Source of the DNA: Bryoerythrophyllum caledonicum
Taxonomy: Eukaryota > Streptophyta > Bryopsida > Pottiales > Pottiaceae
Length of the DNA stretch: 64,000 nt
Direction: 5' to 3'
Assembly (NCBI GenBank): GCA_963971425.1
Contig: OZ020518.1
Span: forward strand, 29,394,770-29,458,769
The notes under the pieces were generated by a model. The model did not search any database. It had not been told where the DNA came from and saw only the letters and a list, made by a program, of their open reading frames with translations. The position numbers and the translations under genes were made by a program. The stretch's first letter is position 1. Every line of letters begins with the position of its first letter. Positions 3,997 through 33,533 of the stretch are shown here, piece after piece.

Positions 3997-4027
3997 AACA
4001 CGCAATTAAGCAATTATGCACTTGGCC
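3997..4027 (+). repeat. Left terminal inverted repeat of the giant element
   Basis: A 31-bp terminus that is an exact reverse complement of 33503-33533. Further inward, AAGTGCACTTAG resembles the subterminal part of the right end after a 6-bp difference (TTTTAA). Confidence 0.9.
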
Positions 4028-4552
4028 TTTTAAAAGTGCACTTAGTGACAACAACGGCCAATGCGTTGGATCAAATTAAGTTTTGTTTGATTTCCTGTTT
4101 TTTTTATAAAAAAATTTAGGATCTGAGAACAATTTTCAATATATCCAAAAATGTTAATTCAATAAGTTTTTTTTGGCATTTTTGACAAACTTGATATGGA
4201 ACTTGGTTAGAATTTGATAAATATTTGTTTCATACTCAGTAGTATGTTTTTGGAAAGAAGCTTATCAAGTAACTATACAAAATATGCAATTATGTAAACT
4301 AAAACACTGCGCAATGAATGGCAATTGATTTGAATATATTACACATGGAACATGATACATAATAAGAAGAAAATCAACATATTGCATATATTCTTGTATT
4401 TGGTGATGTAATCAAACAACGGGAAAAACCTCTCGGATTTATTGGTCAATTGTTACCAAACCCCTTACATAACCTTTGTCGTAGACTACTCTTGCATATA
4501 CCCTACATGCCAATCACCATACACCATACACTCATTGTAGTATCCTCCTTTA
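4028..4552. other. Subterminal non-coding DNA of the giant element
   Basis: AT-rich sequence between the left terminal repeat and the 3' end of the DUF7869 gene. I see no coding frame or recognisable repeat. Confidence 0.5.
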
Positions 4553-7500
4553 CTACATATCATTCAAGGCTGCTTGCAACCGCTCATTGTCAATTGCTTC
4601 GGTTTGCATTGCAATATATTCTAGTATGTGAGCCTTAGCCGATTGAAAAATCCGAATCTTGCTTTCAACTTGCAATCCGAATATATTTCGCTTTCTCCTC
4701 CGGAAAGCGCCAGCCACTGTTCTCTCAAGTTCGTCTATCCACGAAAAGATGCATGCCTCTTTCTCTACCCAACTATGGCTCTCACACGTGGGCTCCCAGA
4801 ATGCATCCATGCAATTTGCATATCGTTGTGCGGTGGACCCTGTTCTGTCAACATTTTCTCTTTGAATGATGGGCCAATACCAACAAACCTTCATCTTATG
4901 ACTCCTTTGATTTTTCCCATCTTCAATCACCTTTCCTACATAGAATGGTATACCACCTTTAACCTCAGCTCTATCAACACTTAGGGCTACAAATTGTCCA
5001 CAATTAATATCTGATTGTGGATTGAATGGTGGAAACGGGTCGTGATTAACTTCATCCCCTGTCCCTTCTTCGATTCGTTCTTGAATATGGTTGCGTTCCG
5101 TTCGTTGCGCCCTACGCACTACTTGATTTGGAAGTATAGCCACAATTTGGTCCACGATGGTTACTTCACGATTTTCGTCGCCTGGGCTGTTGACTTCATC
5201 TAATGAAACACGTTCCGCAGTTGCGGTATTGGACACATCTGAAGGCCAAAATGGTAAAAAATGATGCTCGTTGCTACGGTCTTTGTGTGGAAATTTGGCT
5301 AAATAGAGTTTCAATTTCTCGGCCTCCACTTTAGCATCACGGTTCCTTTCCACATGTTGCAATCTTTCAATGCACCTCTGTTTATGGGCAATGAAGTCAT
5401 CCAACGCTTTTAGCTCCCGTTCGTCCACTGCAAACACATTTGCAAACGCTGGTCGCTCATCTCTACTTGGCAGCGACCTCAAACTCTTTGTCCCTGTCTC
5501 CGGTCCCCATGTTTGTGTTGCACTCGAACCTCGTGGGTTCCATTTCTATCATCTATATAGAATCGCATGTGGTGTGGAAATGTTATGCCAACCAATGAAT
5601 CTGGACCTGTTAGTAGGTGGGGTGTTATGAACTGTTTCCAATCCTATACATTCTCTAACAGCCGTGTGGTGACAAATGCCTCCGTAGGAGACGTTCCCCG
5701 TTCTATAAGGTTAAGCATTTCTTTTAAGGATTCCACGTCCGATCTCTTCAAAGTACTTGATATACAACTGAAGCGTTGATCAATATCTTCATGTGTATGG
5801 CCCACTATAAGGAAAGAGAGTTCCACCTCTTGAAAAAATCCCAATCCCACCAAGGATGCGCATAGAGAAAACATATAGATGTTTTTATTCTCACGGGTGC
5901 AATTATCTGATTGGATGCGCAATGTTGGTGGCAAAAACCCCTTCCTCCGCAACACGTCTCCAATCACATACAACAATGTGCTCACGACCTGGTTGCTGTC
6001 ATGTTTGTGGTGAGCTCCAAACCATACATCGCAATACAAACCGATTCCATGTACTAGAGCCCCGCATAGATGGGTCTTCACAAACCGGTGTTCAATGTTC
6101 TTTACGGTTTGACGCATTCTTGGTACCATGGTCGTGTTTTGGTCCATGCCATCTACAATGATGCACATGTACAACTCAGGGTGGATATAACATGACCTCT
6201 TGAATATCCAATAATGCCTACATTCCTCCATCTGGATGCGTAGATGGAACATAAACAATTCTTTGATCCTAATCCTTGTATCGGCATTGGTTGTTCCCTT
6301 CATAGCACATTTATATTCCCAACAATGATAACACTTTGAGAACCTTGAGAATGGTGGAACTTGGACATGGGGATATCTCAAACGCCACATCCTATGGAAC
6401 GAGCTAATTGAAATGGTTTCTCCATTGCATATTCTCTTCACCTCTTCATTCACGTAATTGAATACGTCAAATTTTATTGTATTCATTGGAAGGAGAATAA
6501 GAGGCACGACTGTGTTGTCATCCTTACGACAAATAGAACGATGAGGTTGAGGACATCCAACTTCTTCCACAAATGATTTGAAGCAAGCCTCTGCAGCAGA
6601 CATTCTAGTGCTCTCTCTAATCGGATTTGATAGTGTGTTACCGTGGATTGCCGTCACTCTACCGTATATTAAACAATCTTTCTTCAACTCCTTAAAACAC
6701 CGTTGCGAATAACCAACCCCAAGAGCGTAGCAACCATTGCAAACAGGCCTGCCATCTAACTTCGTCTCAAATTTATCCCGATATCCTTCCGTTCGTGTAT
6801 AAAAAGAAACCAACATTTGTCTTATCCATGTACTTCGGATTGAATACTCTAGTGCCCAAGCATTATATCGCATGTCTAAAATATGCCTAGCTGGAATGTT
6901 CCTCAAACAATTTTGCTTGCATCCTCCCTGTGCTATTGCCCTTTCCACGCTTGCCAAAGATACCTTACTTGATGCAGTTCCTGTCACATTTGACTCGTTT
7001 GAAACTATCCTTCTTCTATTCTGCATAGAATAAGGTCGGCGCGTTGTTCTAACGTGAGCAAATCCCTCCACATGGGGCAAATCTCGAATGTTAGAGGGGG
7101 TGCATTGAGAAAATGGTGAACTCTCATCAACGAGGTTTGAAGCTTGGCTACTCCACAAAGATTTTTCATTCAATTCGGGGGTGATAGATCGCCCTTAAAC
7201 ATCAAATCCTAGGGCCATTGTCCGTGTAGGTGAAATATGAGATCTATCTTCACCATGGGCATTTGGAAAATTAGGTGTTGTGGCCAAGTCACGAAGCAAT
7301 GACCAGTTCCAACGAATGATCAAGTCCATACATGAACCAAGCCGTTCACCCACAACTTTTCCTATCCAATGTAGTGCATCGTCAACCCAAATTATACGCA
7401 CTGCCACCTCAGATGGAAACATTCTACATCCATGCAATACCATTCCACTTTCAAAGGCATGCTCCCTTTTTGCCAAACCCACGACAATGCCTATTTTGGA

Positions 7501-7674
7501 GAGCAATTCTACAGTCCTTCCCGCTTCAAAATCACCTATCCCAACCGATCTCTCTTGAATTTGGCGCACCCGTGCTGCTCGTATCAACCAAGCCCCCACT
7601 GAACTACTATGAAGGATATTTGATATGCAAATGTTTGGAGGTTCTAAAGGAATATGGGATGTTCCGCTTTCCAT
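4553..7674 (-). pseudogene. DUF7869-domain protein, candidate transposase of the giant element
   Basis: One decayed gene of roughly 1,000 codons. Frame pieces 7195-7674 and 5644-7173 are in the same frame, separated by a TAA at about 7197. A TAG at about 5644 and a one-base frameshift near 5490 separate the C-terminal piece 4553-5482. The middle has cysteine-rich segments (CNGCYALGVG; CYHCWEYKC) followed by the DUF7869 signature: VDGMDQ, LRIQSDNCTREN and GHTHEDIDQRF. These give acidic residues spaced like an RNase-H-fold DDE core. DUF7869 proteins are widespread, uncharacterised and highly multicopy in plants, algae and animals. Its place next to the left terminal repeat makes it the best transposase candidate. 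The domain call is firm; the catalytic role is inference. The C-terminal piece (RVKV-type patches, NIFGLQ) is unrecognised. Confidence 0.75.
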
Positions 7675-7889
7675 TGATACTATTTGACAAATATAGACAC
7701 GACAGTGGAAAAATTGTCAAAATATATATATATTTTTCCAATTCAAAAGCATCATTCATCCAATAGACTACTCACTGATAGACATATGCTTATACTCTCA
7801 CATATAATGATTGATCATTTATAAGATTCACAAGCAGAGCTAATTGGACAAAATTGCAATTTCAAGTGATCCAATGTCAAGCACGATAC
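7675..7889. other. 5' flank of the DUF7869 gene
   Basis: AT-rich DNA between the DUF7869 frame and the nested 7.85-kb element. Any promoter of the DUF7869 gene was probably interrupted by that insertion, which starts about 215 bp upstream of the frame. No promoter motif is recognised. Confidence 0.35.
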
Positions 7890-7897
7890 AGGGGATT

Positions 7898-7957
7898 GCT
7901 ATTTTGAGTGCCCAAATTTGCGAGCCGCGAGTTGCGAGCCTAGAATTGCGAGCCTAG
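7898..7957 (+). repeat. Left inverted repeat of the 7.85-kb element
   Basis: GCTATTTTGAGTGCCC is followed by repeated GCGAGCC/GCGAG units and pairs with the reverse complement at 15670-15731 with a few mismatches. Confidence 0.7.
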
Positions 7958-8841
7958 AAATAAAAAATTTGTGTATTATTGAGAAAAGTGAAAGTGAAAA
8001 TGAAGTATAAAGTCAGGAAAAATATAATTTAAAAAAAAGGTTAGGAAAAAAATGAAGTTAAAAGTAAAAGTTCAAGAAAAGGGGTCCTATAGCCGTGGAA
8101 ATTGATGAACCGTTGGCGTTTATATTAATGTAGTCCTTTCTTATTGAGGCTTCAGGCTTCGGGCTTCGGCGGTGATCTTGAGTGCTAAAATCGTTTAGGC
8201 ATCCTATAATCGAGGATGTCCGAACCTTGATTCAAAATAAATTGATAAATATTTGGATACACCACAAGTTTATAATCATTATACGAGGCTCCACATAAAC
8301 TATTATTTGAGAGTAATTTAACATTTAGATTTCCTCATACACATATTATAAATAGCCTTTGGTAGATTTTTCCCCACACGTTTGTCATAGATAGACTTGG
8401 GCAATAGGATGGACTCTTAAGTAGAATGGTGGGCATTTTTATTCAAAGCTAGCTTGTATTGAACTTTGTAGAGCAATTCTTGAGAGGCTTGACAGTTCAA
8501 GTTATGTTCTGGTTTACGGTCATTTTGTTGGATCTAAAAATTGTAGCCTTTAAATTGATACAATTGGAAGTAATGAGTTTATAAGGGTGGAGAGAGCAGT
8601 AGGTATTCATGACATTTATTCTGGAAGTTCTTAGAGTTGGGCAAGTAGTTCACCGAGTCTTAGAAGTTTTGTTTAATTGATATGGGTATGCTTGAGTGAT
8701 AGAATCATTTTGATTTGCTAGAAATCAAGTAGAGGTAACAAAGATGGAGTAGAAAATGTTGGAATGTAGACATCACAAAGCTCATTTGCTTGGAAATGGT
8801 GAAAACTCAAAGCTACCTTTTTTACTACACTATGACTTTGA
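7958..8841. other. Non-coding interior of the nested element
   Basis: AT-rich DNA with short stop-filled frames. Nothing recognisable was seen apart from a GGCTTCGGGCTTCGG stretch near 8150. Confidence 0.4.
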
Positions 8842-9252
8842 ATGCAACTAGAAGTGGGTGATAACATTGACATCACCTTCAATGCGGTTGATAATTTGGT
8901 GACAATATACAACTGTGTCATTTTGATGTACTCTCAAGTATTTGAAACAATATTCAAGAATAATACGAGGGAAGCAATCTCTTCAGAGGTTGATGTGATG
9001 AACATTACAATTAAAGAATTGAAGTTGTTCATGGTGATCTTGTATATTCTTGGAGGGATTTACTTTGATGGACCCGTTGAGTTGTTGATTACGCCGCCAA
9101 ATTTTTGGGAAGCCGTTGACATGCTATTTTATGAGCTATTTGTTGGATGCATAAAGTATATAGCACGGGCATTGGAGGCCACAATCATTGCCGGAATGAA
9201 TGACCATTTGACGCATGCAACTGCAATGTGTATTGATGCCAAAGTACAATGA
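8842..9252 (+). pseudogene. BTB/POZ-like domain fragment
   Basis: A 136-codon frame starting at ATG. The order of segments resembles a BTB/POZ domain: MYSQVFETIFKNNTRE, then SSEVDVMNITIKELKLF, then ILYILGGIYF, then a helical AVDML...CIKYIARALEATI segment. BTB domains mediate dimerisation and, in plants, often recruit CUL3 ubiquitin ligases. The usual residues before the VFETIF segment are weak and there is no partner domain. It lies alone inside a transposon, so a captured and decayed host-gene fragment is the likeliest reading. Confidence 0.5.
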
Positions 9253-10429
9253 TGACCCTCAACTTGAATGGAATGCGGATTTTCAAGATCTACATGAAGC
9301 ATTACGTTCAACACCACTTGTGAAGGTCGACAAAGGGAATGGATACTGGTAGTGGTTTTACACCCACGTTTTTAAATAAAGTCCAAGAGGATCTGGGTTT
9401 TGTTTAAAAACACGAGCAATTGATATTATATGCAATTGCAACATTCCACGGTGCCATGGCAAAGTCTCAATCAGGAGAGATATGATTCCTCATTAGCCCA
9501 ATGAAGTCATCCAAATATTTGTCAAATAAAGAAACAAAGAATGATGTTTGAGGAAGTAATAAGAACTCCAACTAACTTACTCAATCTAGTTTTCTTCGTA
9601 ATTTTGCGGATTGTTTGATTATAAAGAAGATTCGAGGTAGACCATAAATGTAAAAGAATCAACAAAATACATAAATCTGACAAAATACATAAATCTGACA
9701 AAATACATAAATATTAAAGAATCAACAAGTGGAGTGATTGTTCAATCTTAAAGAAGACGTCAAATCTAAATGAAACAAAGCCTCTTAAGGGCGTTCATCA
9801 AACAAAGCAAATGCAGAAAATCAATAATTATTAATGATCGACTCAAAAAGCACCTCAATAGAGCCGGTGATAGGGGTGTTCCAATTGATGAGATTTGTGA
9901 ATTGCAAATGTTAGGTTGATCTACTGGAAATTGAGAAATAAACACTAAAATGAATTGCAAACTGTTGTCCAATTTTTATAGAGTTGGAGGGCTTTAATAA
10001 AAATAAAAAAAGTTGAGGGAGACTAGATCATACGGTTAGTGTGAGGTTTCTTAGTCCCTTCCAATAGATCTTTGTCTTTTTGAATTTTATAGTCGTAAGA
10101 TTGGTTGTGGATCAATGCCAGAGATGAGAGTGTTGAGGAGGCTGTGAGAGTTGTGGTTTCAATATCTAATAGCCACTGTAATTTTTGGCACTTGAGATTT
10201 GAATATAGTTATATAATAGAATTGAAGATGAAAGAGACATGATAGAAAACTTTGCGCTAAATTTGGACATCTCAGAGAAAATAAGCATGGTGAGGAAGAA
10301 TATTTGAAAGCTTTTATTTTGGTGAAATTACAAGGTCCTCATGTGATTGGAGGTTGGAGATAATATAGGTGTATCATTTCATACAATTGTAGAATCAGTG
10401 AAGGCACAAAAGTAAGTTCTCTTAATGTA
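9253..10429. other. Non-coding DNA between the BTB fragments
   Basis: No convincing coding frame. The stretch contains an 18-bp unit, ACAAAATACATAAATCTG, repeated nearly three times at about 9661-9714. Confidence 0.4.
9661..9714 (+). repeat. 18-bp tandem repeat, about 3 copies
   Basis: ACAAAATACATAAATCTG occurs twice in direct succession with a third copy ending in a variant. Confidence 0.8.
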
Positions 10430-10720
10430 TTTGCTGGTATATAGAGAATGGTGAAGCACAAGATGGAGGAAAGAATTGCTTCCATGGACGGTCTAAAACT
10501 GTTCATTGTGTTGTTGTATGTTCTTGATGGAATATACTTTGATTGGACTAGACGAGTTGTAGAAAATGCCAATAGAGTTTTCAGGAAGATATTGATGACT
10601 ATTTTGATGAACTCTTTGATGTTTACATTAAGTATGGAGTGAGGTTGCTGAAGCCCACGATAATCTCCGTCATTAACGATCATTTGAAATTAGAGAATTG
10701 CCATGTGAATTGGCGTTGAT
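10430..10720 (+). pseudogene. Second, more decayed BTB/POZ-like fragment
   Basis: Segments such as GLKLFIVLLYVLDGIYFDW and, in a shifted frame, LLKPTIISVINDHL parallel the first fragment (LKLFMVILYILGGIYFDG and ATIIAGMNDHL). It is a diverged duplicate broken by frameshifts. No functional product is expected. Confidence 0.5.
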
Positions 10721-11162
10721 CAATGACCATGATTTTCAATATTAGTGGAAAAGATGACTACAAGCAATACTTTGTCAATCACAAGCACGTGCACCTTTGA
10801 TTTTAGACTAAGGAAATAGACACAAACAAAGCATTTACGAGCGCATATTTGAATCAAATTTGAGTTCATAAGGATTTGGATTTAAATATATTGCGTAATT
10901 GATTGATAAGATTTCATAAGATTCAATACAATATCATGCAATATTCTCCATCATCATCATATCTGTAAAAAGAGTACCGACATCGGCACTACTAAGGACG
11001 CTCTTCATTTATTGTCTGAGAGAATCTCTAAGGGAGGGACACATTGACACTCATCTAAATGGTCTTTCCTATCTGTAAAAAAGAAATCTCTAGCGGGAGT
11101 GCCAATATTGGCAATCCACATGAGGGCCTTTTTAATGTTTAAAAAGGGATCTACTAAAGGGG

Positions 11163-11420
11163 ATGCCAACATCAGCAACCCCCTAGATTTCATATTCACA
11201 GTTTAGAAAATTTTCAAGGAATTCCAAAATGGTATCACACATCATCATCCAACACTCTAAGAATAAGTTATCTATGGATGAAGTAACGGATTCTAAGACT
11301 TCATCCAAAGATAACTTATTCTTGGAGCGTAAGTTGACAAAGTGTGATATCATTTTGGAGTTCTCTTAAAAATTTCTAGAGCGTGAATGTAAATTCTAGG
11401 GGGCACTAACATCGGCACTT
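11163..11420. repeat. Foldback hairpin 1 within the satellite
   Basis: An imperfect inverted repeat of about 258 bp. CCAAAATGGTATCACAC on the left pairs with GTGTGATATCATTTTGG on the right, around a loop near GGATTCTAAGACTTC. The outer arms also pair through the satellite spacers. Confidence 0.75.
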
Positions 11421-11464
11421 TACAAATAAGCCTATCCAATCTTTTCAAATGGAACTACTAAATA

Positions 11465-11723
11465 GGAGTGCCGATATCGGCACCCTCTAAAATTTACATT
11501 CATGCTTTACGATTTTTTGAGAGAAGTCCAAAATGGTATCATACTGTATTATCCAACAATCTACGAAAAAGTTATCAACGGATGAAGTAGTGAATTCCAA
11601 GACTTCATCCGTTGATAACTTACTCTTAGAATGTTGGATGATGAAGTGTGATGCCATTTTGGAATTCTCTCAAAATTTTCTAGAATGTGGATGTAAATAT
11701 TTGAGGGTGCCGATGTCGGCACT
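11465..11723. repeat. Foldback hairpin 2 within the satellite
   Basis: A second imperfect inverted repeat of about 259 bp with the same arms as hairpin 1 (CCAAAATGG...CCATTTTGG; AACGGATGAAG pairing with CTTCATCCGTT), bounded on both sides by the satellite palindrome. Confidence 0.75.
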
Positions 11724-12560
11724 TCTTTTTAGAAGTTCCATTTTTAAAGATTATATAGGCCTTCTTGTAGAGTGCCGATGTCGGCACTCCCTTTAGAGGT
11801 TTTCATTGTAAACAAAGGAAGAGTGTCTAGTGGAGTGCCGATGTCGGCACCACCTTTAGACGTTCTCTTTTCAACAATAGAAAAGGTCGTTATAAGGGAT
11901 GATAATGTCAAAATTCTTTTTGGAGGTATTTTTGTTAAAAATGTAAGGGCGTCCTAGGGGTGCCGACGTCGGCACCTCCCTTAGAGGTCTCAAATTTCAT
12001 TTTCAAAGATATAAAGGGCCCTCTAGAGGAATGTCGTTGTCAACACTCCTCTAAAGATTGATTTCTTAAAATGAAAAGGCTCCTTTAGACGAGTGCCGAT
12101 GTCGGCATTACCTTCGGGGGTCTTTTTTCAAAATATAGGAGGGGCTATTTAAAAGAATGTCAATAATGAGGTTGACTTTGGAGGTTCCATTTTTAAACTT
12201 AAAAAGGATCCTTAAAAGGAGTGCCGATGTCGGCAACCCCATTGGAGGTTGTTTTTTTTTAAAATAGGAAGGGCCTTCTAGTGGACTGCCAATGTTCGTA
12301 CCTTCTCTAAAGGTTATTTTTTTAAAACATAGGAAAGGTGTTTCAGAGGGTGCTGATGGCAACATTCCATATTACGATGTATTTTTCTAGAGATACAAAC
12401 AACCTTCTAGTTTGATGCCGATGTCGGCATCCTCTTCAAAAGGTTTTATATATATATAAAATGGATTATCTTGTAGAGAGCAGATGTCCGCAACCCCTTG
12501 GGAGGTTTCTTTCTAAATATAGGAGAGATTAAGTAAAAGGGTGCCAATGTCGGCACCTCC

Positions 12561-14632: not shown

Positions 14633-15669
14633 TTGTGTCACTCTAAATTCTATGTAGAAGGCGGTGAGACTAAAAGGGCCACTTCCACCGTTTGTACTAG
14701 TTCTTGTCTATCACTCGCGAGTCTATACTTCGTAACTATAACGAGACAGAGGGAGACTGAGATTGGAGATTTTCACTTCTCTCGCAAGTATATAGAAGTT
14801 GAATTTAATATCTCACTCTTCCAATGTCCCCCTCCAAGACTCTTTCTAATTTTACCGGTTCCAAAAATTACATTGTCGGGTTGTCAATTGTCCACAAACT
14901 ATCCTTCATATCTCCCCACTTTTCTCCGTTATCTTTGGTTCTAAACACTTACTATTTCTCCTTTAACAATAGTTCCATACTCTAAATCATTTGCTCTTTG
15001 TCCCACTAGCTTTATCGCCCATACACATTTAAATCTCCCAGATTTACCATGTTTTGAGTCATCATCCACCAAGTTGAATCGTCTATCTTCAAATCCTGCC
15101 TCTTGCTATTAGACTCTCCCTAGCCCTCTAGGCCGCTATTCCTAACTCTAAATCTTTTGTTCTACTGTATCCTAAATTCAACCAATATTTTTCAATGTGT
15201 CACTCTCACTGTCTCCAACGCTCCCTCTCTAAAACCTTAAAACCTTATAAACTGTACTTGACATCTCTTTAAATTGCACTAATCCCACTTCTTTCGATCT
15301 CTGGATTCCTAAAACCACTACCACTCTCCAAATTCTAAAACCTTCCTCTCCACCAATTCCTCCTCTTTGACTCCTCTCTCCCCCTCTTACTGTCCATTTT
15401 TATATCCTAAATCATGCTCTAAAGCTTTATAACCTTAAAAATCCTATCTTCCCTTCAATATAGAACCCTAGACTCCACGGTCATAAGCCCTTTTTTTCAA
15501 AAGAAAATCAACAATATTGTCATTTTTAGATCCTTCCTGCATAAAATTTCTCCACCCTCCTCCACGGTAATAGGTCCATTAATTTTATGCGTTTAACCAA
15601 TGTCATTCTAAAAAAACTTAATACTTTTACTTTTTAATGCATTTTCCAAATTGAGTTCCTAATTTCCAA
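14633..15669. other. Pyrimidine-rich non-coding stretch
   Basis: Strongly C/T-rich on the plus strand, with loosely repeating CTCTAAATC, AAAACCTT and CTCTCCCCC-like motifs. The stretch is asymmetric between strands. I see no gene. Confidence 0.4.
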
Positions 15670-15731
15670 ACTAGGCTCACGACCCTAGGCTCGTAGCTCG
15701 TGGCTCGCAAAATTAGGCACGCAAAATAGCT
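15670..15731 (-). repeat. Right inverted repeat of the 7.85-kb element
   Basis: The reverse complement reads GCTATTTTGCGTGCC followed by GCGAGCC-rich sequence, matching 7898-7957. The 8-bp duplication CACGATAC follows at 15739-15746. Confidence 0.7.
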
Positions 15732-22800: not shown

Positions 22801-25800
22801 ATGTTCGTGTTATTGGTGATCTTATGCAATCACTTTTTTTAATTCTCGGTATGTTTTCAGCGCCACCATATTGGGCAAGGACATAGTGAGTTAATCCATT
22901 ATATATTTTCCCAAGTCTTCCTTTATCGTTTAAAGCATTTTGCAGTTGTTCGCCTATACATCGGAGGTATGCGTTTTTTAGGGAGAAAGCTTCAAGTCCA
23001 ATTAGGTTATGTGGGAGTTGGGTTATTGCATTTGACATACATTTTGGTAATCCACATATGGTTTTTTGTATGGCTATTATTTTTTTATCAAGTTTTTTGA
23101 TAGCTGGCATAGAGTATGGTACACCGTAGAAGCTATATGCCACACCTGGGCGTAGTACGGTATCAACCATTTTTATTTTTTGTTTCATGGTGGCTGGGCA
23201 TGTTGTTAGTTCTTTGCATTGTTTGATGAGCTTTGTGGTTGTAGTGTGGATTTGGATTTTCCATTTTAGTGAGGGAACAAGATTTGTACCTAGGTATATG
23301 TATGGTTCGTTTTGGTGTAGTATAGGGATTGGTTGGTTGCGGTAGTTGATGTTGGAGGTTTGCATTAGGGCTTTGAAAGTGGTAGGGTTCAATTTAGATT
23401 TGTTTGGGCATCCGGTAGCGGCACATTTTGGAACTCCCTCATCCATGCCAGCCCATTTACAATATCTATCAATTTTATGGAGTTGTATTTGGATTGATTT
23501 GATTTTGTTAGTTATGGTGGCTAGGTCATCTGCGTATGCGGCGGAGTTTATTGTGACTTGTGATTTGCCGAAAGTATATTCATTATTGCCTCTTTCTAGC
23601 CATCTAAGTAGTGGTTCTAAAAATATAATAAATAGGTATGGGCTAAGGGTGTCCCCTTGTATAGTTCCTCTTTGGATGGGTATAGGTTTTGTTTTCCGGA
23701 AGTGTTCGCCGATATAGCAAGTAGATGATTGGGAATAGATGTTTCCAACAAGTGTAGTTGCCTCTTTTGGGTAGCCAAGGTCTGACATTATTGCTAGAAG
23801 TCTGGCATGATCAATTGAGCCAAAGGCATTTTTGAAGTCCACGTATAGTATGTATATATCTTGGTTAGTAAATTTTGCGTCTTCTAATGCGGCTATTATA
23901 GTTTGTATTTGCCTTGCGGTACTTCTCTCCGCTCTAAATCCTTCTTGACTATCATGTAGGATTTTGAATTTTTCGCCGTATGAGGATAGTATGTGGGTGA
24001 GTGTACTGGTAAAAAGCTTATATATTGTGTTAGCTAGTGCAATTGGTCTATGATTGGGTAGCATGGATGGATCGCCTTTTTTGTATAGTAGAATTGTTGC
24101 ACTTGTTTTCCATGAATTTGGTATTTGTTTTTGTTTATAGCAGTGAGAAAAGAATAGGAATAGTAGTTTATGAAATTTTGGAGGCATGTTTTTGAGTATT
24201 GAGTTTGGTATGCGGTCTGGGCCTGGGGCTTTATTATTTCCAAGATTTTGGAGGCATGTGTCGTATGTGGCTCTGTTGAGGTATTTATGTAGTGGAATTT
24301 CTGGTTCGCCCCGTTTGTCAAGGGTATATCCGTCCAGGTCGTGCCAAGGGTATTGGCGTATTGCACATGTGCATTCTATTGTATGTTGTGGCTGGTAATT
24401 ACATGTTGGTACTGTTGGTCTATTGGTTTTTGTTTGTTGGTTGAATATTTCATTCGCAATGTCTTCGGGGCTAGTTAGAATATTATTATATTGATCTTTG
24501 ATACAATCCATTGGTGGGGATTCAAGGTTTTTAAAGACTTTTTTGTTAATTTTTTTGGGGCTGATTTCGTATAGTTGTCTGTATTTTGAGATGGTTTTTT
24601 TAATGTTTTCTTTTGTGTATTTTGTGATTATTTTCCAGGCTTGTATATTGGCATTTTTTGCAATTATCGCGATATCTTTTATCCATGTATCGTGGGGAAG
24701 GTCCGGAGGCGGCGGGGTAGGGATTTGGATGTGTTGTATAGTTTGTAGTTCGTTGTGTATGGGGTGGTTACGCCATTGGGGGTTGTTTTTTACAATTTTA
24801 ATGGTTTTACGTATGGTATGGTATGTGGTTAAGTGTTGTTTCCAAGTTTTAGAAAGTTTGCGGGGTAGATACCCGCCTTGTTGAGAGGTTCTATTTGTCA
24901 TTTGGGGTATTGGGTGTGCTCTACAAGTTTGTTCTAGTGTATCAGAGATTTTATTGATGAGTTTGTCTAGAGAGTGGCATGCTTCTTGCCATTGTGCTTG
25001 TGTTAATTGACTATTGATTTCAAGAGTGTTTATGAGGGAGTCTATTTGTACGGTGTTTTCTTCAAAGAATTTTGTGTTGAATTTTTCTATGTTGGTTTTT
25101 GGGATGGGGTTGAGTATGCGTATAGTGTCTTTGTTTGGGATTGTAGGAATTCTACTAATTAGTGTGTTATTTGGGATGTGCAGTTGTACAGGTGAGTGGT
25201 CCGAATTGAGAATAATATCTTTGTTTGTTGTGGAGGTGTATTGTGTGTTGTTGGTTGTATTTATATAGAAACCATCTATTAGACTCCAATCACTATAATT
25301 GTAGCCACCTTGTCTAGAGAATTGTGTATCGGTATTGATGTAAGTGAAGTTTAAGTTTTCTGTGAAGCGGCGCCATTGGTAATCAATGTTTTGAGGGGGG
25401 GTGTGATGGTTCCCATTTTGGCAGCCAATTAGTGCTATGTCTCTATTGAAGTCTCCACATAGTAGATATGTATGATTGGGATGATTATTAATATGGTTTC
25501 TAATAGTGTTTTGTATATCTAAGAGAAATCTAGTATCTTCGGGATGGGATGGCATATACATGTGAAAGATTAACCACGATTGTAGTGGGTCATTAGTGAT
25601 TTTAATTATTTGAATGTATGGTGATATGTGCATTGGGGTAGGGATTTTGTTGATGTTGCCGGGGAATGTATATTTTCTGTGTATTAATGTAAGGAGGCCA
25701 CCGCGGCCCGGTGTGTATGGTCTCCTTTGTTGCATGCATCTTGTAAGTGCATGTGTATTGTTAAAGATGAGTTTATAGTCTTGAAATATATTTTGTATAT

Positions 25801-26908
25801 ATTTTGTAGATTTTGTGGCGGTTAGTTTTGTTTCTTGTATAACTATAAGAGCCGGTGGTGTGTCTGTGTTTGCGACTAGAGTTTGTAAGCTAGGAAGGGC
25901 AGTGTTTAGTGAGGAAGCATTCCATGTGATTATGTATGTATTTTCTTGGTTTGGTCTAATGTTTTGATTTTGGTTTTGAGGAGGGATGTAGGGAAGAGGT
26001 GGGGGTGGGTGGGTGTATTCTGGTATAGGGTCTAGACATTTTAGTGATTCACTTATGAGGTTGTTAGGGAGGTAAGGGAATTTTAGTTTTATTATATCAT
26101 TTGAGGGTGGTATGTCTTGACTATGTAAGAAGTCGTATAGTCTTTTATGTATTGAGTTCTCATGGTTTATAATATTTTGGTTGTCTACTAGGAATTCAGT
26201 ATAGGGGTGTGGAGTGTAAATGTGTCGTTCTGGTGGGTTTTGTAAGGTTAGTAAGGTTTGTAGGAGTGTATTAGTCCATGTAATTGTGTTCCAATTTTGT
26301 GGATTTAGAAGTTGGTTACATTCATCTATGTTTGGATGAGTAGTGATTATTAGTGCATATAAGATGTGGGGTGGTGGATGCGTATTTTTTTGTTGTATGT
26401 ATTGGGCAATGTTTGGGTGGGAAGTGTTTTGTATGTGGTGTAATGTATGTGTGTTTTTTAGAAATGGTGCGAAGGGTTTTGCAATGTGTTCATATTCTGG
26501 TTGGAGTTTTATGGTATTAGGTATAAAGTAGATTTTGGCATTTTTTTTATGTGATGTAGGATGTCTTTTTAGTATATTGGGCATGGGTCCCGGGTTGGTT
26601 TCGATGTCTCTTCCTAGAAGTAGTAGAAGTTTGTGGTATATATGTTTAGTGGTGTATTTTAAAGGCTTTGTTGTGTTATTAATGACTTGTTGGTTTGGTG
26701 GATGCGTATTTTTTTGTTGGACATATTGGGCAATGTTTGGATGTGTAGTGTTATATGTGTGGTGAGATATGTGTGTATTTTTTAAGAGGGGTGCAAAGGA
26801 TTTTGCAATGTGTCCATATTCCGGTTGTAATTTTATGGTATTAGGTATGAAGTATATTTTGGCATTTTTCTTATGTGATGAGGGGTGTCTTTTTAGTATG
26901 TTAGGCAT
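19802..26908 (-). CDS. LINE ORF2 polyprotein: 2A, endonuclease, reverse transcriptase, RNase H, zinc-binding tail
   Basis: A 2,368-codon frame. Order: N-terminal segment (1-100); 2A motif DIETNPGP (101-108); a near copy of the N-terminal segment from 109; APE-type endonuclease (about 326-560: WNASSL, QETK, GDFNRD, SDHSP); reverse transcriptase (about 870-1150, AYADDLAT at about 1123); RNase H (about 1960-2090, YYTDGSF to ANIDGNEQADKL); and a Cys/His segment (about 2236, CPICP...WLH). It nicks target DNA and copies the LINE RNA into the genome. A slip in an A-tract near 19826 ends the frame early: the C-terminal 85-90 residues (ALGWNVEPL; GARATTFIPSMK) continue in another frame to 19557. RNase H and the APE endonuclease place it among APE-type LINEs; the clade is unresolved. 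Otherwise the frame is clean, so the copy is young. Confidence 0.9.
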   Translation of the reverse strand: MPNILKRHPSSHKKNAKIYFIPNTIKLQPEYGHIAKSFAPLLKNTHISHHTYNTTHPNIAQYVQQKNTHPPNQQVINNTTKPLKYTTKHIYHKLLLLLGRDIETNPGPMPNILKRHPTSHKKNAKIYFIPNTIKLQPEYEHIAKPFAPFLKNTHTLHHIQNTSHPNIAQYIQQKNTHPPPHILYALIITTHPNIDECNQLLNPQNWNTITWTNTLLQTLLTLQNPPERHIYTPHPYTEFLVDNQNIINHENSIHKRLYDFLHSQDIPPSNDIIKLKFPYLPNNLISESLKCLDPIPEYTHPPPPLPYIPPQNQNQNIRPNQENTYIITWNASSLNTALPSLQTLVANTDTPPALIVIQETKLTATKSTKYIQNIFQDYKLIFNNTHALTRCMQQRRPYTPGRGGLLTLIHRKYTFPGNINKIPTPMHISPYIQIIKITNDPLQSWLIFHMYMPSHPEDTRFLLDIQNTIRNHINNHPNHTYLLCGDFNRDIALIGCQNGNHHTPPQNIDYQWRRFTENLNFTYINTDTQFSRQGGYNYSDWSLIDGFYINTTNNTQYTSTTNKDIILNSDHSPVQLHIPNNTLISRIPTIPNKDTIRILNPIPKTNIEKFNTKFFEENTVQIDSLINTLEINSQLTQAQWQEACHSLDKLINKISDTLEQTCRAHPIPQMTNRTSQQGGYLPRKLSKTWKQHLTTYHTIRKTIKIVKNNPQWRNHPIHNELQTIQHIQIPTPPPPDLPHDTWIKDIAIIAKNANIQAWKIITKYTKENIKKTISKYRQLYEISPKKINKKVFKNLESPPMDCIKDQYNNILTSPEDIANEIFNQQTKTNRPTVPTCNYQPQHTIECTCAIRQYPWHDLDGYTLDKRGEPEIPLHKYLNRATYDTCLQNLGNNKAPGPDRIPNSILKNMPPKFHKLLFLFFSHCYKQKQIPNSWKTSATILLYKKGDPSMLPNHRPIALANTIYKLFTSTLTHILSSYGEKFKILHDSQEGFRAERSTARQIQTIIAALEDAKFTNQDIYILYVDFKNAFGSIDHARLLAIMSDLGYPKEATTLVGNIYSQSSTCYIGEHFRKTKPIPIQRGTIQGDTLSPYLFIIFLEPLLRWLERGNNEYTFGKSQVTINSAAYADDLATITNKIKSIQIQLHKIDRYCKWAGMDEGVPKCAATGCPNKSKLNPTTFKALMQTSNINYRNQPIPILHQNEPYIYLGTNLVPSLKWKIQIHTTTTKLIKQCKELTTCPATMKQKIKMVDTVLRPGVAYSFYGVPYSMPAIKKLDKKIIAIQKTICGLPKCMSNAITQLPHNLIGLEAFSLKNAYLRCIGEQLQNALNDKGRLGKIYNGLTHYVLAQYGGAENIPRIKKSDCIRSPITRTFFLLKHIAKAHLKSTLPNFLTNPTTLEILWRQETLNHNTLNAQLSQKLLQKLLSKNIFELNQITLPNGTHIMNNEDFKTYHFTPSKLIKSALSVAKQLFCHITCPTTCHTTCNIHPYSHTLKDPFITLNNNIIPRNIPTPTNPSNPPHTYHPRPPTYIPKNPTTYPINNIINHKHIQHTDTNNIQNTYTKYLCQWQHNDNTYNKWLPQRDLFPRHDTNTSTHNTEKLKQYYQKIQNKIYSDIILAHHPQEQSSNSRSVTPPIIIPLLNIYTTECNPKNDILTSSNTIQIDNNQAHLYEENGRHLHTIPITRLQWLWNQYHTKLQSPTNIEPTTQPFETELIWLYQRYKYRIPKIDPLKNAQYTIPTPILDSLISSFNIEHSYFSSPITCPTKLNKFYSPYKRDKIFGSLGKAFEHKWIGNGIAHPHNEKDIEQAIHWARLAAKHDPNNTKTIIVTPNNNWYQNNNQHSNPFPDSHIIALFEADTIPYEEPNIRPKLKKPRIEPSTLQILCVHHQNQNLGSLEQLAELTSITDNLDIQRPYTKPAPPTPIQTPVNKSKKWSKLNYDNNTLNYSVIPPPLPDYPTHTTPKFNPAYSYYTDGSFKPPEQISPGSWRREKAGYGIYNSTKEIKLAKRLHGLQNILRAELMAIHKTLQIITTKYKNEPAHIFTDCINALYLLNTQITHPTLHNSHPDQTILISMVQMLQKRTQITTLHKVRAHANIDGNEQADKLAKEGREKTHKNAKDPHEHAHATPYYFQKEDWPSKEDTPDKGPIRFLGKYLKKQDLYNNLDTISENIPNIEKWTNNNDIDNELSTNFWKNPIISDSQITCLIKFRTGQYMGNARKQLFFGIERFPSITCPICPSTDPDTWLHVLLKCQNHHIHSLIVKRHNKAVWEVRKLITSYNKSRCFILMNAGTFNSNPQENTVPSWLLPCSCMTQRCHCNARLKPDILCVKGLPYNDPPPENINQDYTIQFIEFTYCNDRFSPETLQKKKINTNPS
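26585..26608 (-). other. 2A-like ribosome-skipping motif, copy 2 (DIETNPGP) within ORF2
   Basis: Residues 101-108 of ORF2, preceded by KLLLLLGR and followed by MPNILKRHP, the same start as the frame itself. The unit of 108 codons (324 bp) including a 2A is tandemly duplicated. Skipping here would release a peptide of about 108 residues and restart translation at the proline that precedes MPNIL. Confidence 0.85.
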
Positions 26909-26938
26909 CGGGCCTGGGTTAGTCTCAATGTCTCCTCC
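26909..26938 (-). other. 2A-like ribosome-skipping motif, copy 1 (GGDIETNPGP)
   Basis: The codons just before the ORF2 ATG spell ILGGDIETNPGP in frame with ORF2, preceded by hydrophobic residues as in known 2A sequences (consensus DxExNPGP). The open stretch upstream reaches a TAA after about 30 codons, so in this copy the motif is cut off from the upstream frame by a frameshift. Confidence 0.8.
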
Positions 26939-26981
26939 TAGAATTAGTAGGATTTTTTTGTGTTTTGTTTGGTGTTCTGTT

Positions 26982-27746
26982 TTAGAGTTTTTGTTTTTCG
27001 TGTATCTTTATGGAGTGGTTTTTTGTTGTTTTTTTTTTATTGTAGTTGTGTTTGGTCTGTGGTAAGAGGGGGTTTTTGTTTGGGTGTGTTGTTGTTTTTT
27101 CTTTTGTTGTACTGCTGGTGGTTTTTTCACATATGGTTGCTAGTTGTTTTGTGTTTAGGATGGGTTTGCGTGTATTAGTTTGTGTATGTCTAGTTCTATG
27201 TTTTTGTTTAGTTCTAGTTTGGGGACCGGCGCTCTTCTTTTTCTTTGTGTGTGTATTGGTGTTTATGTGTGAGTGTTTGTGTGATTTATTTTGTATTTTA
27301 TTGTATGTTTGTTTGTTGTTTGTTTTCTTATTTGTTTGTGTACGTTTGTGTATGTTTTCTGGTGTATTTGAATGTATTTTGTTAATGTGTACATGTGTAT
27401 ATGTATGTGTGTGTGTATGGATTTTAGTGTTTGGTATTTGGTTTTTGGTATAATAGTTAGAGTAGTATTTGGTATAGTATTTGTATTTTATATAGAGGAA
27501 GCGTCTTTTAATACATGTTTCGTATTTGGTATAATGGTTGGGTACTTTGTGAATGTATTTATGTTGTAAGGTATATTTGGTATAGGCCGTATTATGTGTG
27601 TTTGTAAGGTGTGTGAGGTCTAATTTTTGTATAATATTAGTGAGAGGGAAGTATTTATTTACGGTCTTTTTGTAGTGTAGTGTTTTAGTTTGTTGTTTTC
27701 TTTGATTTTTTGGTTTATATATATTTTTTGGATGAATTGTTTTCAT
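26982..27746 (-). CDS. Low-complexity frame upstream of 2A/ORF2
   Basis: A 254-codon frame very rich in Lys, Thr, Asn and His (HTHTHTYTHVH; KKKKSAGPQ), encoded by G/T-rich plus-strand DNA. In LINE-A the homologous region (34983 downward) is in frame with the 2A and ORF2, so this is probably the N-terminal leader of ORF2, displaced by a frameshift near 26990. Its composition suggests RNA binding, but no domain is recognised. Confidence 0.5.
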   Translation of the reverse strand: MKTIHPKNIYKPKNQRKQQTKTLHYKKTVNKYFPLTNIIQKLDLTHLTNTHNTAYTKYTLQHKYIHKVPNHYTKYETCIKRRFLYIKYKYYTKYYSNYYTKNQIPNTKIHTHTHTYTHVHINKIHSNTPENIHKRTQTNKKTNNKQTYNKIQNKSHKHSHINTNTHTKKKKSAGPQTRTKQKHRTRHTQTNTRKPILNTKQLATICEKTTSSTTKEKTTTHPNKNPLLPQTKHNYNKKKTTKNHSIKIHEKQKL

Positions 27747-28378
27747 GTTTTTGTTGTTTTTTATTATTATTGTGTTTTTCTTTATGGTTGTATGTGTTTT
27801 GTTGTTTATGGTATTTGTGATTTTTTTGTTTGTGTTTGTGATTTTTTTGTTTGTGTTTGTGATGTGTGTAATGGTAGTTGAAGTGATTTTGTTTGTTTGA
27901 TTGTTTTGTTCTGGTTTATTGTTTTGTATGTTGCTTTTGTTACTTGGTTTGGTATTTGTTTGTGTATCTTGGTTTGTGTTAGTCTTAATGTGTAGATATT
28001 GGTTTATGTTTTTGCATCTTTTTATGTATTTGGTGGATGTTATGTTTATATTTATGTGTGTATGTGTATTGTAGGTAGTATTTTCATTTGTGTACGTATA
28101 TGTTTTTGTATGTATGTTTTTTGTATTTGTATGTTTTTTGGTATTTGTATTAGTATATGTATTTAAGTATGTATATATGTATTCTCCTTTGTATAGTATG
28201 ATGTATTTGTATTGAGTATGAAGTCTAATACAGTATTTATACGCCCCATATACGGGTGTATGAATGTAAACTAATACATATAATGTATGAGTATAGTATC
28301 CGTAGTCTATACTAGACTTTAATGTATGTATTTGGTATAGCGTGTAGTCAATGATAGTTACCTTGTATTCTTTGAAGT
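27747..28378 (-). other. LINE-B spacer between ORF1 and the ORF2 leader
   Basis: G/T-rich, low-complexity DNA with TGTATTTGTATG-like runs and two copies of a 21-bp unit (GTGATTTTTTTGTTTGTG...) at 27815-27865. No gene seen. Confidence 0.5.
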
Positions 28379-28903
28379 CTACAAGTTTGGCGGCTTGTCT
28401 TCAATCATGGGTGTAGCCATACTTCCCGTGATGGCTTGCATCGATGCAAGCGCGGTGCTCATTGCTTGTTGGATGCTCAACATTTGAGCCTTCAATTCTT
28501 CATGTTTTTGGTCGGCATACTCTCGTGTCTCCTTCCTCATCTTCTTGTTGCTTTCTTCCATCACCGACTCCACGATCTCCAACACATCTTGCTTGGAGAT
28601 ATTGGGTGAGGGTTCTTGTATTTTGAAGGTCTCCACCGTGTTAACCATGGCGGCGTTGACATCATCAAACCCGAAGGTCTTCACTTGTGCTTCGGAGGGG
28701 GGTTCCGTTCCTTCTAGACTCCTTCGGTGTGGTGCAAACTCTACAAGGTATCCTCCCATGGTGAAGGTTTTGTTTACAAATTGTTTGTAAACTATTGGGT
28801 TAGTACAATGTACAAAGTCAAGGAAGCCACATTTGAGTTGTAACATGATGCTTTTGTGTATTTTTCTTAGAAGGTGTAAGCATTGATGTATATGAACATA
28901 CAC
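28379..28903 (-). pseudogene. LINE-B ORF1, C-terminal part
   Basis: Encodes about 170 residues: PIVYKQFVNKTFTMGGYLVEF, then PHRRSLEGTEPPSE, then a predicted coiled coil (LEIVESVMEESNKKMRKE). The same segments recur in LINE-A at 36214-35754 (FLHKTFTIG; PHRRSLE), in the same position relative to ORF2, which identifies this as LINE ORF1 and not a host gene. The listed start is a GTG, not a true start: the N-terminal two thirds are missing. LINE ORF1 proteins typically bind RNA as multimers; the coiled coil fits that. Confidence 0.7.
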
Positions 28904-28960: not shown

Positions 28961-31900
28961 ATGGCACCACCACTTCCAATCAAAAGGCGCTGGGAGGAGT
29001 ATGGTTGGTGGATTGTAGTAGACACGGCGTCAAAGCCAGTATGGTGGCTCACGGAACATCCATTTCAAATAGGGATGCGCACATCAGCATTGGGGAAGCC
29101 CTTCGCTGAACTTCGAGCAATTAATCTTTGACCAGACGATATGGTCTATGCAGTTTGCGAACCGGGGGTTGGCCAAACGGCATCAAAGACTTCTCTTTCA
29201 AAGAAGTTGCTTCTAGCACCTGCTCCTACAGATCTCCTTCAAAATTCAAGGCGGGTGAATAACATAACCTCCTTACAGACGTTTTGGCTCAGCACGGATC
29301 TTGCGGTGCGCACTGCTAGGCATGAGCATGTGTTGGCATGTTTGGCGTTATCTGAAGAGGATGAGGCACGCACTAGAAGATTTATGAGTGCTCATACCAT
29401 GTATGAGGCATTACGGTGGACAGAGCCAGAGCGTGCAAGTCTACCAGCGGATCCAGAGGAGACCGAGCCCATTTATCGCGCGTTAGCAAAGCCGACACAG
29501 TTGGATTGGCGGCCGTCCACTGAACTGCCACCATCACGTGTTCGTGCACCAACAAGTGGTCGTCCATCTAAGCGGCCATGACGTGAAGAGGGCAACATAG
29601 CTCCAGATTTTGATGGACGGCCCTCGCGTGGCCGTTCACAGACATCACGTGGCCGCTCAGAGACATCACATGGTAGGGCCTCGACATTGCGTGCCAGGGC
29701 ATCGACGTCGCGGGGCATGACATCGCCATCGCGTGGCAGGGGCCGTGAATCGATAGCTGGACAAGCCGAACTCATCGTAGATCCTCAACATCTACAACAG
29801 GTGTCTCTGTGAGTTTGTCGGCCATGGATGACGACTTGCACAACTTTTCTGATCAGTCATTGGGAGATTCGGAGGAGGAGGCAGAGATTCCAGCAACCGT
29901 TCCAACTTCTAGGCATTTGAAAGCGCCAGTACCTACAAAGGAGAAAGTTGCGAGAGGTTCCATATGGGGCGACATTGTGTTCAAGGCACATATTGACCGC
30001 ATTGTCGAAGTGGTGAATCCGAAGACAAACCATCGGATACTGTCACAGAAGAGGAAATCAGAAGTGTATCACTTCTTACGAGATCCCCAGAACAAGACCG
30101 GAGTGAGTAAATTGGTACTTCGTCCAATCCGGTACCTCGTGGATATCACTACCGACACTGGCATGGTTGAGCGTGAGGGAGTCGATTTCCCGGTTACTGG
30201 AGCAGCACGAGAGTTTGAACGGATGTTCTTAAGCCATGCGGGTGCTTCTATACACGGTACTGCGGGCTCTCAACTATCTTGGCTTCAAGAGCGTATCATT
30301 TGGGAGCCTGTGGACGGGCAACACGTTGTGGCTGCTTGCAAGTATGCGAAGGAGTAGTGCATGAGCGGCAACATCCCTCTGTCTGAGTATCAGAAGACGT
30401 TTGAGGAGCGCGAGGCTACCTTTGTTGTGTACGATGATCGACGACTTTACATTAACAAGTCAGTACAGGTCAATAATGCGGAGTGGCAAAGAAAACAACT
30501 TTCCACCATGAATGAGGATTTGGTGAAGCTCCGACAGATATGGGATCTGTATGGTAGGCCTGATAGCTCGGTCCGGGCGGACGATGAACGCAGGGCTATC
30601 GCACTGGTGAGCGCAGCAAGTGCCGTGCGGAAACTGCCTCACAGAGATGACAACAAGATTACAATGTCCACACTGGCAAAGATCATGGAGGACCTAATCA
30701 ATCATGCTTGGAATCCCAGCAATGAGTGCTTTGAAGCTGCCTTTCAAGTCAACAACGACTACAAAAACGGCGTCCTGTTTTACAACAAGGATGAAGAGAA
30801 GAGGTAGAAGGCTTTGGCATTGAAGAAGAACTTGGATCCGAATGCGGATGTTCGACCGAGGCGGAAGCGGATGACCGGGCATTGGTTGAGGCCGCTTGGG
30901 AGACTTCCAGATTCATACTATCTGGAGGTTGCAAAGGCTTGTACAGCTTAGCCAGTAGGCGAGGATGGACGTAGACCTCGTCAAGCACTTTACTTCAACG
31001 GCGTTAAAGACCAAAATCCAAGGACTCGTACCCTTGCCGGTGTATGTGAGCGCATTATGAGACGAGAAGCGGTGATAAATACCATTCGTTGGTTGATGGT
31101 AGAGAACAAGGAATCTTCACCGAATTCCATGGAAGAGTTCTTTTGTATATCTATACGGAAGTATTTGCCAGGAGGCAAGGAACAACTTGACAAATTTGCT
31201 GAGCTGTTGGATAGCAAAACAAGAACCAAATGGGGTGCTCCACAGCGAGAGAAGGTGTCGAAGCTCAAAGACATAAGCGACCTCGTCCCTCCTTTCATCA
31301 AGGTACATTATCAGGTTGTTGCAGCAAAGGGGCAAGGCCAGAATGCACCATCCGTATATGAGGGAGTTGCAAACACTACCAATTGGGAGTGGCAGTTGCA
31401 TGTTCAGAGGCCAGGCGAGAATGACACACAGGATCCGCTTCTGATTCGGTGTAGAAGAGGACTATTTCGTTCAGAGTATGCGGAGTTGACACGGCCATAC
31501 CTGTGGATTATTGATTGTCGCCGTGGTGGTGGAAGGCATGGCAATGGTCATTGGGAAGATGAACAATTCACTAGAATCTTTGCACAACTGGCGTTATGGA
31601 TGACGACCACTGAACGATGGAACGTCATTTTCCTATTACCATCGGCCGTGTTTGCCACCGAAGAGTTGATTACGAAGTTGAAGCTCCCGGAGGGTTGCTC
31701 TCATCGGCGTGATGTTGGGCGTTTGGTGAGACCTCGGTTGATCATCCTCTGAACTTTATAGAGGGAGGGCGCTTACAACAAGCAGTTGAACCAGTAGGCG
31801 ATATCATTATTTGTCTCCAACATCCAGCTGGATTGTCTGTTGAGGCGAACTTTATTACTGGCCGCTGTCCACTTCCTCTTTTATTTGATGATAACCGTGG

Positions 31901-32941
31901 TGAAGCATGAGAGCCTTCTGCTGTTGATGCTCTTGAGAGATCTCCATCTGAGTTATCAAGACTGGTGGGTTCGTACTTGCCTCGGGGTTGGGGTTTGGTG
32001 GTATGTAACATGTCAATAGCGATTCCGACTATACTACACTCGGATTTCCAGGGATCTGAGATCATTGTCATTGACGAGTACAGCGAGAGGATTTCGTTCT
32101 TGTACGGTGAGTTGTCCAATAACCTCCAAGGGCATTTGTTGATGTCTAACAACATCGATGGAACGGACAATGCTCCCACTAGTGTGGATGCTACCGAAGA
32201 TGCGATTCCTTTACGAACGGAAGGTGACGATGATGTGGATTTCTACACCCATTTGAACGAAAGATTGCCACGTGAATATGGGACGGACGAATCCACGCCT
32301 GACAGTCGCTCGCCCGACTTGCAGCGAAGTAGTGAAGCAGAAGAAGGGGAAGACGAGGAGGACGATGAAGAGGAAGACGAAGGTGAAGATGAGGGAGCAC
32401 CTAGGAGAGACGTGGTTCTAACAACGCCGCCGCCGCATGTGGGAGTTTGTGTACATGAGACACCTGTTGGAATGGGGGATGATACCAGGGTATTGGATGT
32501 TCCTTCAGAGGCACCAACAGATGGGATGAACATATCCATTTCTCAGCTGTCAGAATCAGAGCAGTGTGCCACTGATTCTCTCATATTTTTTTCGGAGTTG
32601 AGTAGGGGTAGACAGTCTTTGGGGCCTGCTCCATCAGAGCTTGGATCTGCGACACATGGGAGCGCTGAAGGTATTGGAGGTGGCACTGGACCAATATTGC
32701 CATCTATTTCAAGACAGAGTAACATCTATTTCGGGAGACCTTCATTGCACCAATGACATTTAGGGATGGCTTCTATTATGATGCAGATGGCGTAAGGCAC
32801 ACGCGGCACGGCGACCCTGGCAGCTACAGATATGAACAGTCTACATCAGTCGGTCTTGGAGATAGTCCGGTGCAAGAAGAGGAGTTGGCTGAAATGGTAA
32901 ATACTGCCATGGAACACGCTACGGGAGTAATATCGCCATAG
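28961..32941 (+). pseudogene. ParB/sulfiredoxin-like (DGQH motif) protein gene of the giant element, inactivated
   Basis: An ATG at 28961 opens a frame running to about 32941 with in-frame TGA (29129, 29579), TAG (30355, 30805, 30948) and TGA (about 31910), plus frame changes near 29800 and 31735. N-terminal part: WWIVVDTASKPVWWL and a TSRGRS-type repeat (29620-29730). Middle: WEPVDGQHVVAACKYAKE (about 30300-30354), like the DGQHR box of ParB/sulfiredoxin-fold proteins. Then YLWIIDCRRGGGRHGNGHWE (about 31498) in an unrecognised domain, and an acidic tail (DEEDDEEEDEGEDEG, about 32355). The frame stays coherent across each stop, so it was one long protein of about 1,300 residues. Its place inside the right terminal repeat suggests a role in the life cycle of the element. 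Fold call tentative; function unknown. Confidence 0.55.
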
Positions 32942-33502
32942 GATGATGAAGACTCTGAGGTCATACCGTAGCTAAGCATACATGATGTTTAGGTGACTAG
33001 TACAGTGTGATTGGAATATTTGCTTTAGAGACGGTTTGTTTGATTGTAGTATATGATCTTTGTAGTATTCAATAGTTATATCATGTATGGTTTTATATAT
33101 ATGAAAAATATAGAGTTCTAAACCTCACACTTCATCATTGTATTGCGTGCTTTATCATTACATCTTCTACAAATTGTATTTGTAACACGACACTAATTTT
33201 TTTAAAAAATTCATATAAAATTTATTTCATGCAACAAATTGTATATGAATAGTTTCTTGTAAGTACATGGTCAATGTAATATTGTCAATGGAATAAAAAT
33301 GAAATACCATAATTATATATTATGCATAATCTTACCGAAATGGTGAAAATGATTTACTTGTGTACACATTGAGAAACCAATATTCAATGAAATTGTCACA
33401 AAAATATAGCAAAGAAAAAATAGGGATTGTCGGATTTTTTTTCCTTCCAAAAGACATTTCCGCTCAAAATCTTGTTGTTATTGAGTGCCAATTAGCGCAC
33501 TT
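32942..33502. other. Right subterminal non-coding DNA of the giant element
   Basis: AT-rich DNA after the ParB-like gene. The last 25 bp before the terminal repeat (TTGAGTGCCAATTAGCGCAC) match the equivalent place of the third copy at 39621. No gene seen. Confidence 0.5.
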
Positions 33503-33533
33503 GGCCAAGTGCATAATTGCTTAATTGCGTGTT
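33503..33533 (-). repeat. Right terminal inverted repeat of the giant element
   Basis: The exact reverse complement of 3997-4027. It is followed by the AATA duplication (33534-33537) and then by resumed LINE-A sequence. Confidence 0.9.

Follow-up and report, generated by a model that had tools for sequence, protein, structure and literature searches.

The window analysed here, a stretch of 64,000 nucleotides from contig OZ020518.1 of Bryoerythrophyllum caledonicum, harbours a decayed DNA transposon into which two other elements have inserted. The transposon carries a gene coding for a protein with the Pfam domain DUF7869 near its left end and a second gene, gene 2, coding for a ParB-like protein near its right end. 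Both genes hold stop codons and frameshifts. The features of the locus, with terminal inverted repeats abbreviated as TIRs and long interspersed nuclear elements as LINEs, are:

3997-33533: whole insertion, composed of the DNA transposon and two nested insertions, delimited by its TIRs, the AATA duplication and a paralogous empty site
3993-3996: left copy of the target-site duplication, AATA, 4 bp
33534-33537: right copy of the target-site duplication, AATA, 4 bp
3997-4027, plus strand: left 31-bp TIR, exact match, recurring genome-wide
33503-33533, minus strand: right 31-bp TIR, exact match, recurring genome-wide
4553-7716, minus strand: decayed DUF7869 gene, predicted transposase (open stretches 4556-5545, 5647-7194 and 7198-7716; homologs P0001 and P0002)
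5686-6087, minus strand: part matching Pfam DUF7869 (PF25273; hmmscan E 4.6e-45; residues 370-503 of the minus-strand frame 5647-7194)
7891-15737: nested insertion 1, bounded by inverted ends and flanked by the 10-bp duplication GCACGATACA (7881-7890 and 15738-15747), missing from 8/8 full-length copies
15738-19308: central transposon region, in which no conserved open reading frame (ORF) was found
18855-18885, minus strand: internal copy of the terminal motif, 24/31 bases, in right-end orientation, found in 8/8 full-length copies
19309-28814, minus strand: nested insertion 2, LINE-B, with matches to reverse transcriptase, endonuclease and RNase H, missing from 8/8 full-length copies
28961-32941, plus strand: decayed gene 2, ParB-like protein (homologs of ~1,200-1,490 aa)
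29971-30489, plus strand: predicted ParB/sulfiredoxin-fold domain of gene 2 (model residues 75-247)

The two 31-bp TIRs (AACACGCAATTAAGCAATTATGCACTTGGCC, inverted at the right end) are identical and the target site lies in a LINE. The part of this LINE found to the left of the transposon (666-3952) aligns in two pieces, to LINE-B 21756-24839 and to LINE-B 25243-25461; the part to its right (from 33533) aligns to LINE-B from position 25501. Joining the flanks with a single AATA restores an unbroken alignment to LINE-B, which has AATA at the same place, and the LINE-B locus is a paralogous empty site for the 3997-33533 transposon. Subtraction of the nested insertions and of one 10-bp duplication from the 29,537 bp of the whole insertion gives a native length of 12,174 bp. 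A preliminary description of this DNA had proposed perfect 31-bp inverted repeats with an AATA duplication, a single LINE split near LINE-B position 25500, a DUF7869 gene at one end and a ParB-like gene at the other, two nested insertions, and a native size of about 12 kb, all of which agree with our analysis. It erred in having the genes point inward: the minus-strand DUF7869 gene runs toward the left end, the plus-strand gene 2 toward the right. It also overlooked the damage to both genes of this copy and a third exact terminus outside the transposon (39642-39672, described below).

The organization of the native transposon was established from eight full-length copies (11.6-12.4 kb) read whole. 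In all eight, counting from the left end, the DUF7869 gene occupies ~550-3850 on the minus strand and gene 2 ~7640-11770 on the plus strand (with deletions in gene 2 of copy C14b), so that the two genes are divergent and point outward. Copy C2b has both frames open, coding for polypeptides of 1074 aa (DUF7869) and 1377 aa (gene 2); the DUF7869 frame is also open in C9b and the other full-length copies are damaged. The central 3.6 kb reveals no third gene, since none of the eight C2b ORFs of at least 60 aa is open in all eight copies, the best one being open in four. Near 7.1 kb all eight hold a degenerate right-end motif (23-25/31 bases). Past this internal motif, at +66 to +365 and upstream of gene 2, lies an array of 7-9 copies of TTTCATCCG in every full-length copy, against ~0.1 expected, while the window has six copies at 18921-19121. 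The idea that the array is a general ParB-binding site was dropped, as the regions read upstream of gene 2 in subfamilies B and C (see below) hold one and none.

The transposon is abundant in the 437-Mb assembly (894 contigs) that contains the window. The best 40 of 1048 left-end candidates and the best 40 of 845 right-end candidates were scored and paired by eye according to contig and strand, with spans of 4.6-38.3 kb, which yielded the window and 18 other copies. Thirteen of the 18 are flanked by perfect 4-bp duplications (TATA, TTGA, ATAA, GTAA, TTAT, AGAG, CAAA, TGTA, TCAA, AACA, AATA, ATAA and TTCC), four match at 3/4 bases and one, a 4.6-kb copy, has no match. Two of the four imperfect pairs, both on contig C14, have common flanks and are probably one insertion that was duplicated. 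Twenty of the 21 scored left ends without a partner were read 5.3 kb inward, one on C9 being left out. The DUF7869 gene is present behind 18 of these 20, two of the 18 holding only P0002 residues 623-776, and was not found within 5.3 kb of the two others. In 17 of the 18 the match extends to the last P0002 residue, which lies 548-561 bp inside the terminus; in the remaining one it halts at residue 759, at a distance of 611 bp. Short copies of 4,793 and 5,105 bp, both flanked by perfect duplications, account for two of the 20 left ends. The window copy, the 18 others, these two short copies and one copy each of subfamilies C and B make 23 in which both ends were read; 18 have perfect 4-bp duplications, four match at 3/4 bases and one has none. 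A search with the terminus had been expected to find paired ends, 4-bp duplications and a DUF7869 gene at a fixed distance, and this is what the genome holds.

A more distant DUF7869 query, P0008, extended the survey to subfamilies, named by the frame length in its table, of which one copy each was read. Among the best 56 of 3612 candidate places scored, 46 have no internal stop, a fraction biased upward by the choice of the best-scoring places. Subfamily C (1066 aa, C3:2676197) shares the left end of the window copy and departs from the right one by a single mismatch; it measures 12,217 bp by coordinates, with a TGTT duplication and a ParB-like gene at the right end. In subfamily B (1075 aa, C7:17676202) the ends have diverged; the copy read is 15,754 bp long and has a TTAT duplication and a ParB-like gene. 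The left end is exact in the 1077-aa subfamily and recognisable, with seven mismatches, in the 1087-aa subfamily. The reverse search with gene 2, in which the best 35 of 2857 candidate places were scored (12 without internal stop), found a scored DUF7869 gene 4.1-7.6 kb off in divergent orientation at 17 places; at 10 more, one of the scored left ends lies 7.7-33.7 kb upstream.

Structural homology led to putative functions for both proteins. An RNase H/DDE transposase fold is predicted for the DUF7869 protein, and predicted fold and conservation together point to the acidic (aspartate) triad of such enzymes. The sole eukaryotic transposases among the 50 fold matches listed are of the mariner type (Mos1, SETMAR). 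For gene 2, the top 22 rows of the fold search with its model are occupied by ParB, Noc, KorB, PadC and Srx (sulfiredoxin) at 9-19% identity, which suggests an N-terminal ParB/sulfiredoxin fold; the likeness to these PDB proteins lies in this predicted fold, and gene 2 differs from them in that the domain is part of a large eukaryotic transposon protein. Gene 2 gave nothing above cut-off in Pfam; its best E values were 0.039 in NCBIfam, searched with three pieces and below the family cut-off, and 0.067 in PHROGs. Nine gene-2 homologs were found, eight of 1205-1488 aa and one of 584 aa, and a deeper profile search returned eight proteins, all already in hand. The average ratio of nonsynonymous to synonymous substitution rates (dN/dS) is below 1 for both genes. 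Viral contigs searched with a single protein, the DUF7869 and gene-2 alignments and the exact terminus hold no relative. Prokaryote contigs hold one weak DUF7869 relative (26% identity, L076 459-1130, on a 3.2-kb contig of a bacterial metagenome-assembled genome), which may be eukaryotic contamination.

We privilege the hypothesis, in which we have high confidence, that the window contains a decayed copy of an abundant ~12.2-kb two-gene cut-and-paste transposon, most likely of the Sola (Sola-1) group, with DUF7869 as transposase and a ParB-fold protein as accessory partner. As an RNase H-fold enzyme bearing an aspartate triad, DUF7869 would bind the 31-bp ends, excise the transposon and insert it with a 4-bp stagger. 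Cut-and-paste rather than copy-out transposition is suggested because of the predicted fold and the duplications. The divergently transcribed ParB-fold protein would most likely be a DNA-binding clamp that loads onto DNA of the transposon itself, where it would aid transposition or protect the transposon from silencing; regulation of the divergent promoters is another option. In such a scheme the Pfam domain of unknown function DUF7869 gains a testable function, that of a transposase, and the ends, duplications and open gene pairs located here are material for testing it.

Membership in Sola is likely from architecture and duplication length, not from transposase sequence. Paired TIRs, a fixed 4-bp duplication and a paralogous empty site with one duplication copy identify the window element as a TIR DNA transposon. 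The 4-bp target-site duplication is a Sola trait, published for Sola2 (PMC3627910), and an opposite-strand ParB-type partner, a common rather than a defining trait, is found in Sola1-1_Ec32 of the brown alga Ectocarpus, a 21.5-kb element with a Sola-1 transposase and a ParB-methyltransferase gene (PMC12477816). This is the closest published element found, and DUF7869 would correspond to the Sola-1 transposase. Both elements are giant and join a transposase gene to a ParB-like gene on the opposite strand; ours is shorter (12.2 kb, 15.8 kb in subfamily B), and the 1104-aa algal partner has a predicted N4/N6 methyltransferase domain (PMC12477816), none being detected here in Pfam. The Ectocarpus table counts 1989 Sola-1 copies, two of them intact, and nested insertions, present in the window copy too, are reported for most giant families of that alga (PMC12477816). 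Sola2 of amoebozoa likewise makes 4-bp duplications and pairs its transposase (888 aa in one family) with an accessory gene; it differs by shorter TIRs (12-13 or 21 bp), AT-rich duplications and an accessory Fanzor1 in place of a ParB-like protein (PMC3627910). KDZ and other fungal TET/JBP transposons resemble our transposon in adjoining a DNA-directed accessory gene to the transposase, but they have other transposases and a dioxygenase instead of the ParB fold, and Zisupton makes an 8-bp duplication against 4 bp here, which does not fit a KDZ/Zisupton assignment (PMC12730594). In land plants, a review lists a Sola1 of Physcomitrella (PMC9033089). The proposal of a large, little-described DUF7869 transposon group holds in that paired ends and DUF7869 recur; it has to be tempered in that the brown alga was already reported to have a Sola-1 element accompanied by an accessory gene of ParB type (PMC12477816). 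The idea put forward for algae, that ParB-fold proteins of bacterial type are borne by large eukaryotic transposons, now reaches another genome. The open PMC literature searched holds no article combining a ParB domain with TIRs and a transposase of a eukaryotic transposon.

Several observations weigh against our hypothesis. Foldseek alone gave no match in PDB at E <= 0.001 for the DUF7869 or the gene-2 model, and both fold calls come from a second aligner for this reason. Five of the 32 best DUF7869 fold rows superpose badly (9.7-22.4 Å), and the gene-2 model has a mean predicted local distance difference test (pLDDT) score of 46.9, with 454 of 667 residues below 50. Single dN/dS pairs reach 1.11 for the transposase gene and a perfect duplication is missing in 5/23 copies. 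The right end was not found in the stretches read for the 1077-aa subfamily, 10.8-13.8 kb away, and for the 1087-aa subfamily, whose stretch instead held the left end of another copy, two mismatches from the window terminus and with another DUF7869 gene behind it. The most divergent DUF7869 gene (1072 aa, C14:4752773) has no recognisable terminus within 1.3 kb past its stop, and 8/35 gene-2 places have neither a DUF7869 partner nor a left end among the matches listed.

The function of the ParB-like protein is where another reading gains most ground. Rather than a transposition clamp, it may be a possibly degenerate ParB-methyltransferase by which transposon DNA is modified or masked: the algal relative fuses its ParB-like domain to an N4/N6 methyltransferase (PMC12477816), and the length of eight of the nine homologs leaves room for a second domain. 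We hold this possible but doubtful, as none of 10 gene-2 members matches a Pfam methyltransferase family with E up to 10 requested, a negative of little weight given that the filters drop most matches above ~0.1 and that the region is poorly modelled. Whether DUF7869 defines a new transposon superfamily with no kinship to Sola bears on classification. The duplications found here are not confined to the AWWT type reported for Sola2 (PMC3627910), DUF7869 is named in none of the papers of the open PMC library, and 0/52 DUF7869 proteins match the named Pfam transposase families at E <= 0.01; yet the 4-bp duplications and above all the opposite-strand ParB-type partner are common to elements filed as Sola, and make the new superfamily rather unlikely. 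Named DUF7869 homologs include molluscs, sea urchins and lancelets. A fuller scheme, in which DUF7869 forms its own superfamily with metazoan members and transposition needs two proteins, with a ParB-fold clamp (for instance at the central region) and no methyltransferase, appears to us a fairly slim prospect.

Mobilisation in trans by another transposase, with DUF7869 as a passenger gene, would account for the at least one broken or deleted gene in 8/9 copies read through, the window copy likewise, and for the internally deleted 4.8- and 5.1-kb copies with perfect duplications. We judge it improbable: DUF7869 is the transposon's sole gene with a predicted transposase fold, it is present in all eight full-length copies with an average dN/dS below 1, most of its best-scoring genes are uninterrupted (46/56), and the termini have diverged together with the gene in subfamily B and the 1087-aa subfamily. 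An assembly artefact fusing a LINE to unrelated repeats could be suspected from an odd LINE-LINE junction (645/666) at the window left edge; the ends and matching duplications recur at numerous further sites, most of them on 20-65-Mb contigs, and we give this explanation practically no credit. At that edge an inverted LINE-B piece (1-645, 99% identical) meets LINE-A (83% identical) at 666, by rearrangement or by an assembly join.

Mutator-like elements make target-site duplications of 8-10 bp, a length found for nested insertion 1 (10 bp) and not for the transposon (4 bp); nested insertion 1 is Mutator-like by duplication length alone. Within it lie a BTB-like fragment (E 1.1e-4) at 8842-9249, a piece of 69% similarity at 10500-10687 and, at ~11.0-12.6 kb, a long palindromic repeat region. 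The long minus-strand frame of LINE-B in nested insertion 2 (19805-27007) has a PCIF1_WW match between reverse transcriptase and RNase H (E 2.2e-9, above the Pfam cut-off).

One more terminus lies outside the transposon:

39642-39672, minus strand: third exact terminus, of right-end type, unpaired in the window

Termini unpaired around DUF7869 genes had been named beforehand as an argument against such a transposon group. This one has no partner within the 64-kb window, but 46-65 bp around it resemble right ends elsewhere at 88-96%, and it appears to be what is left of another copy. Its flank (39674-39756) matches, at 83-86%, stretches of L063 and, within subfamily B and C elements, of L074 and L075.

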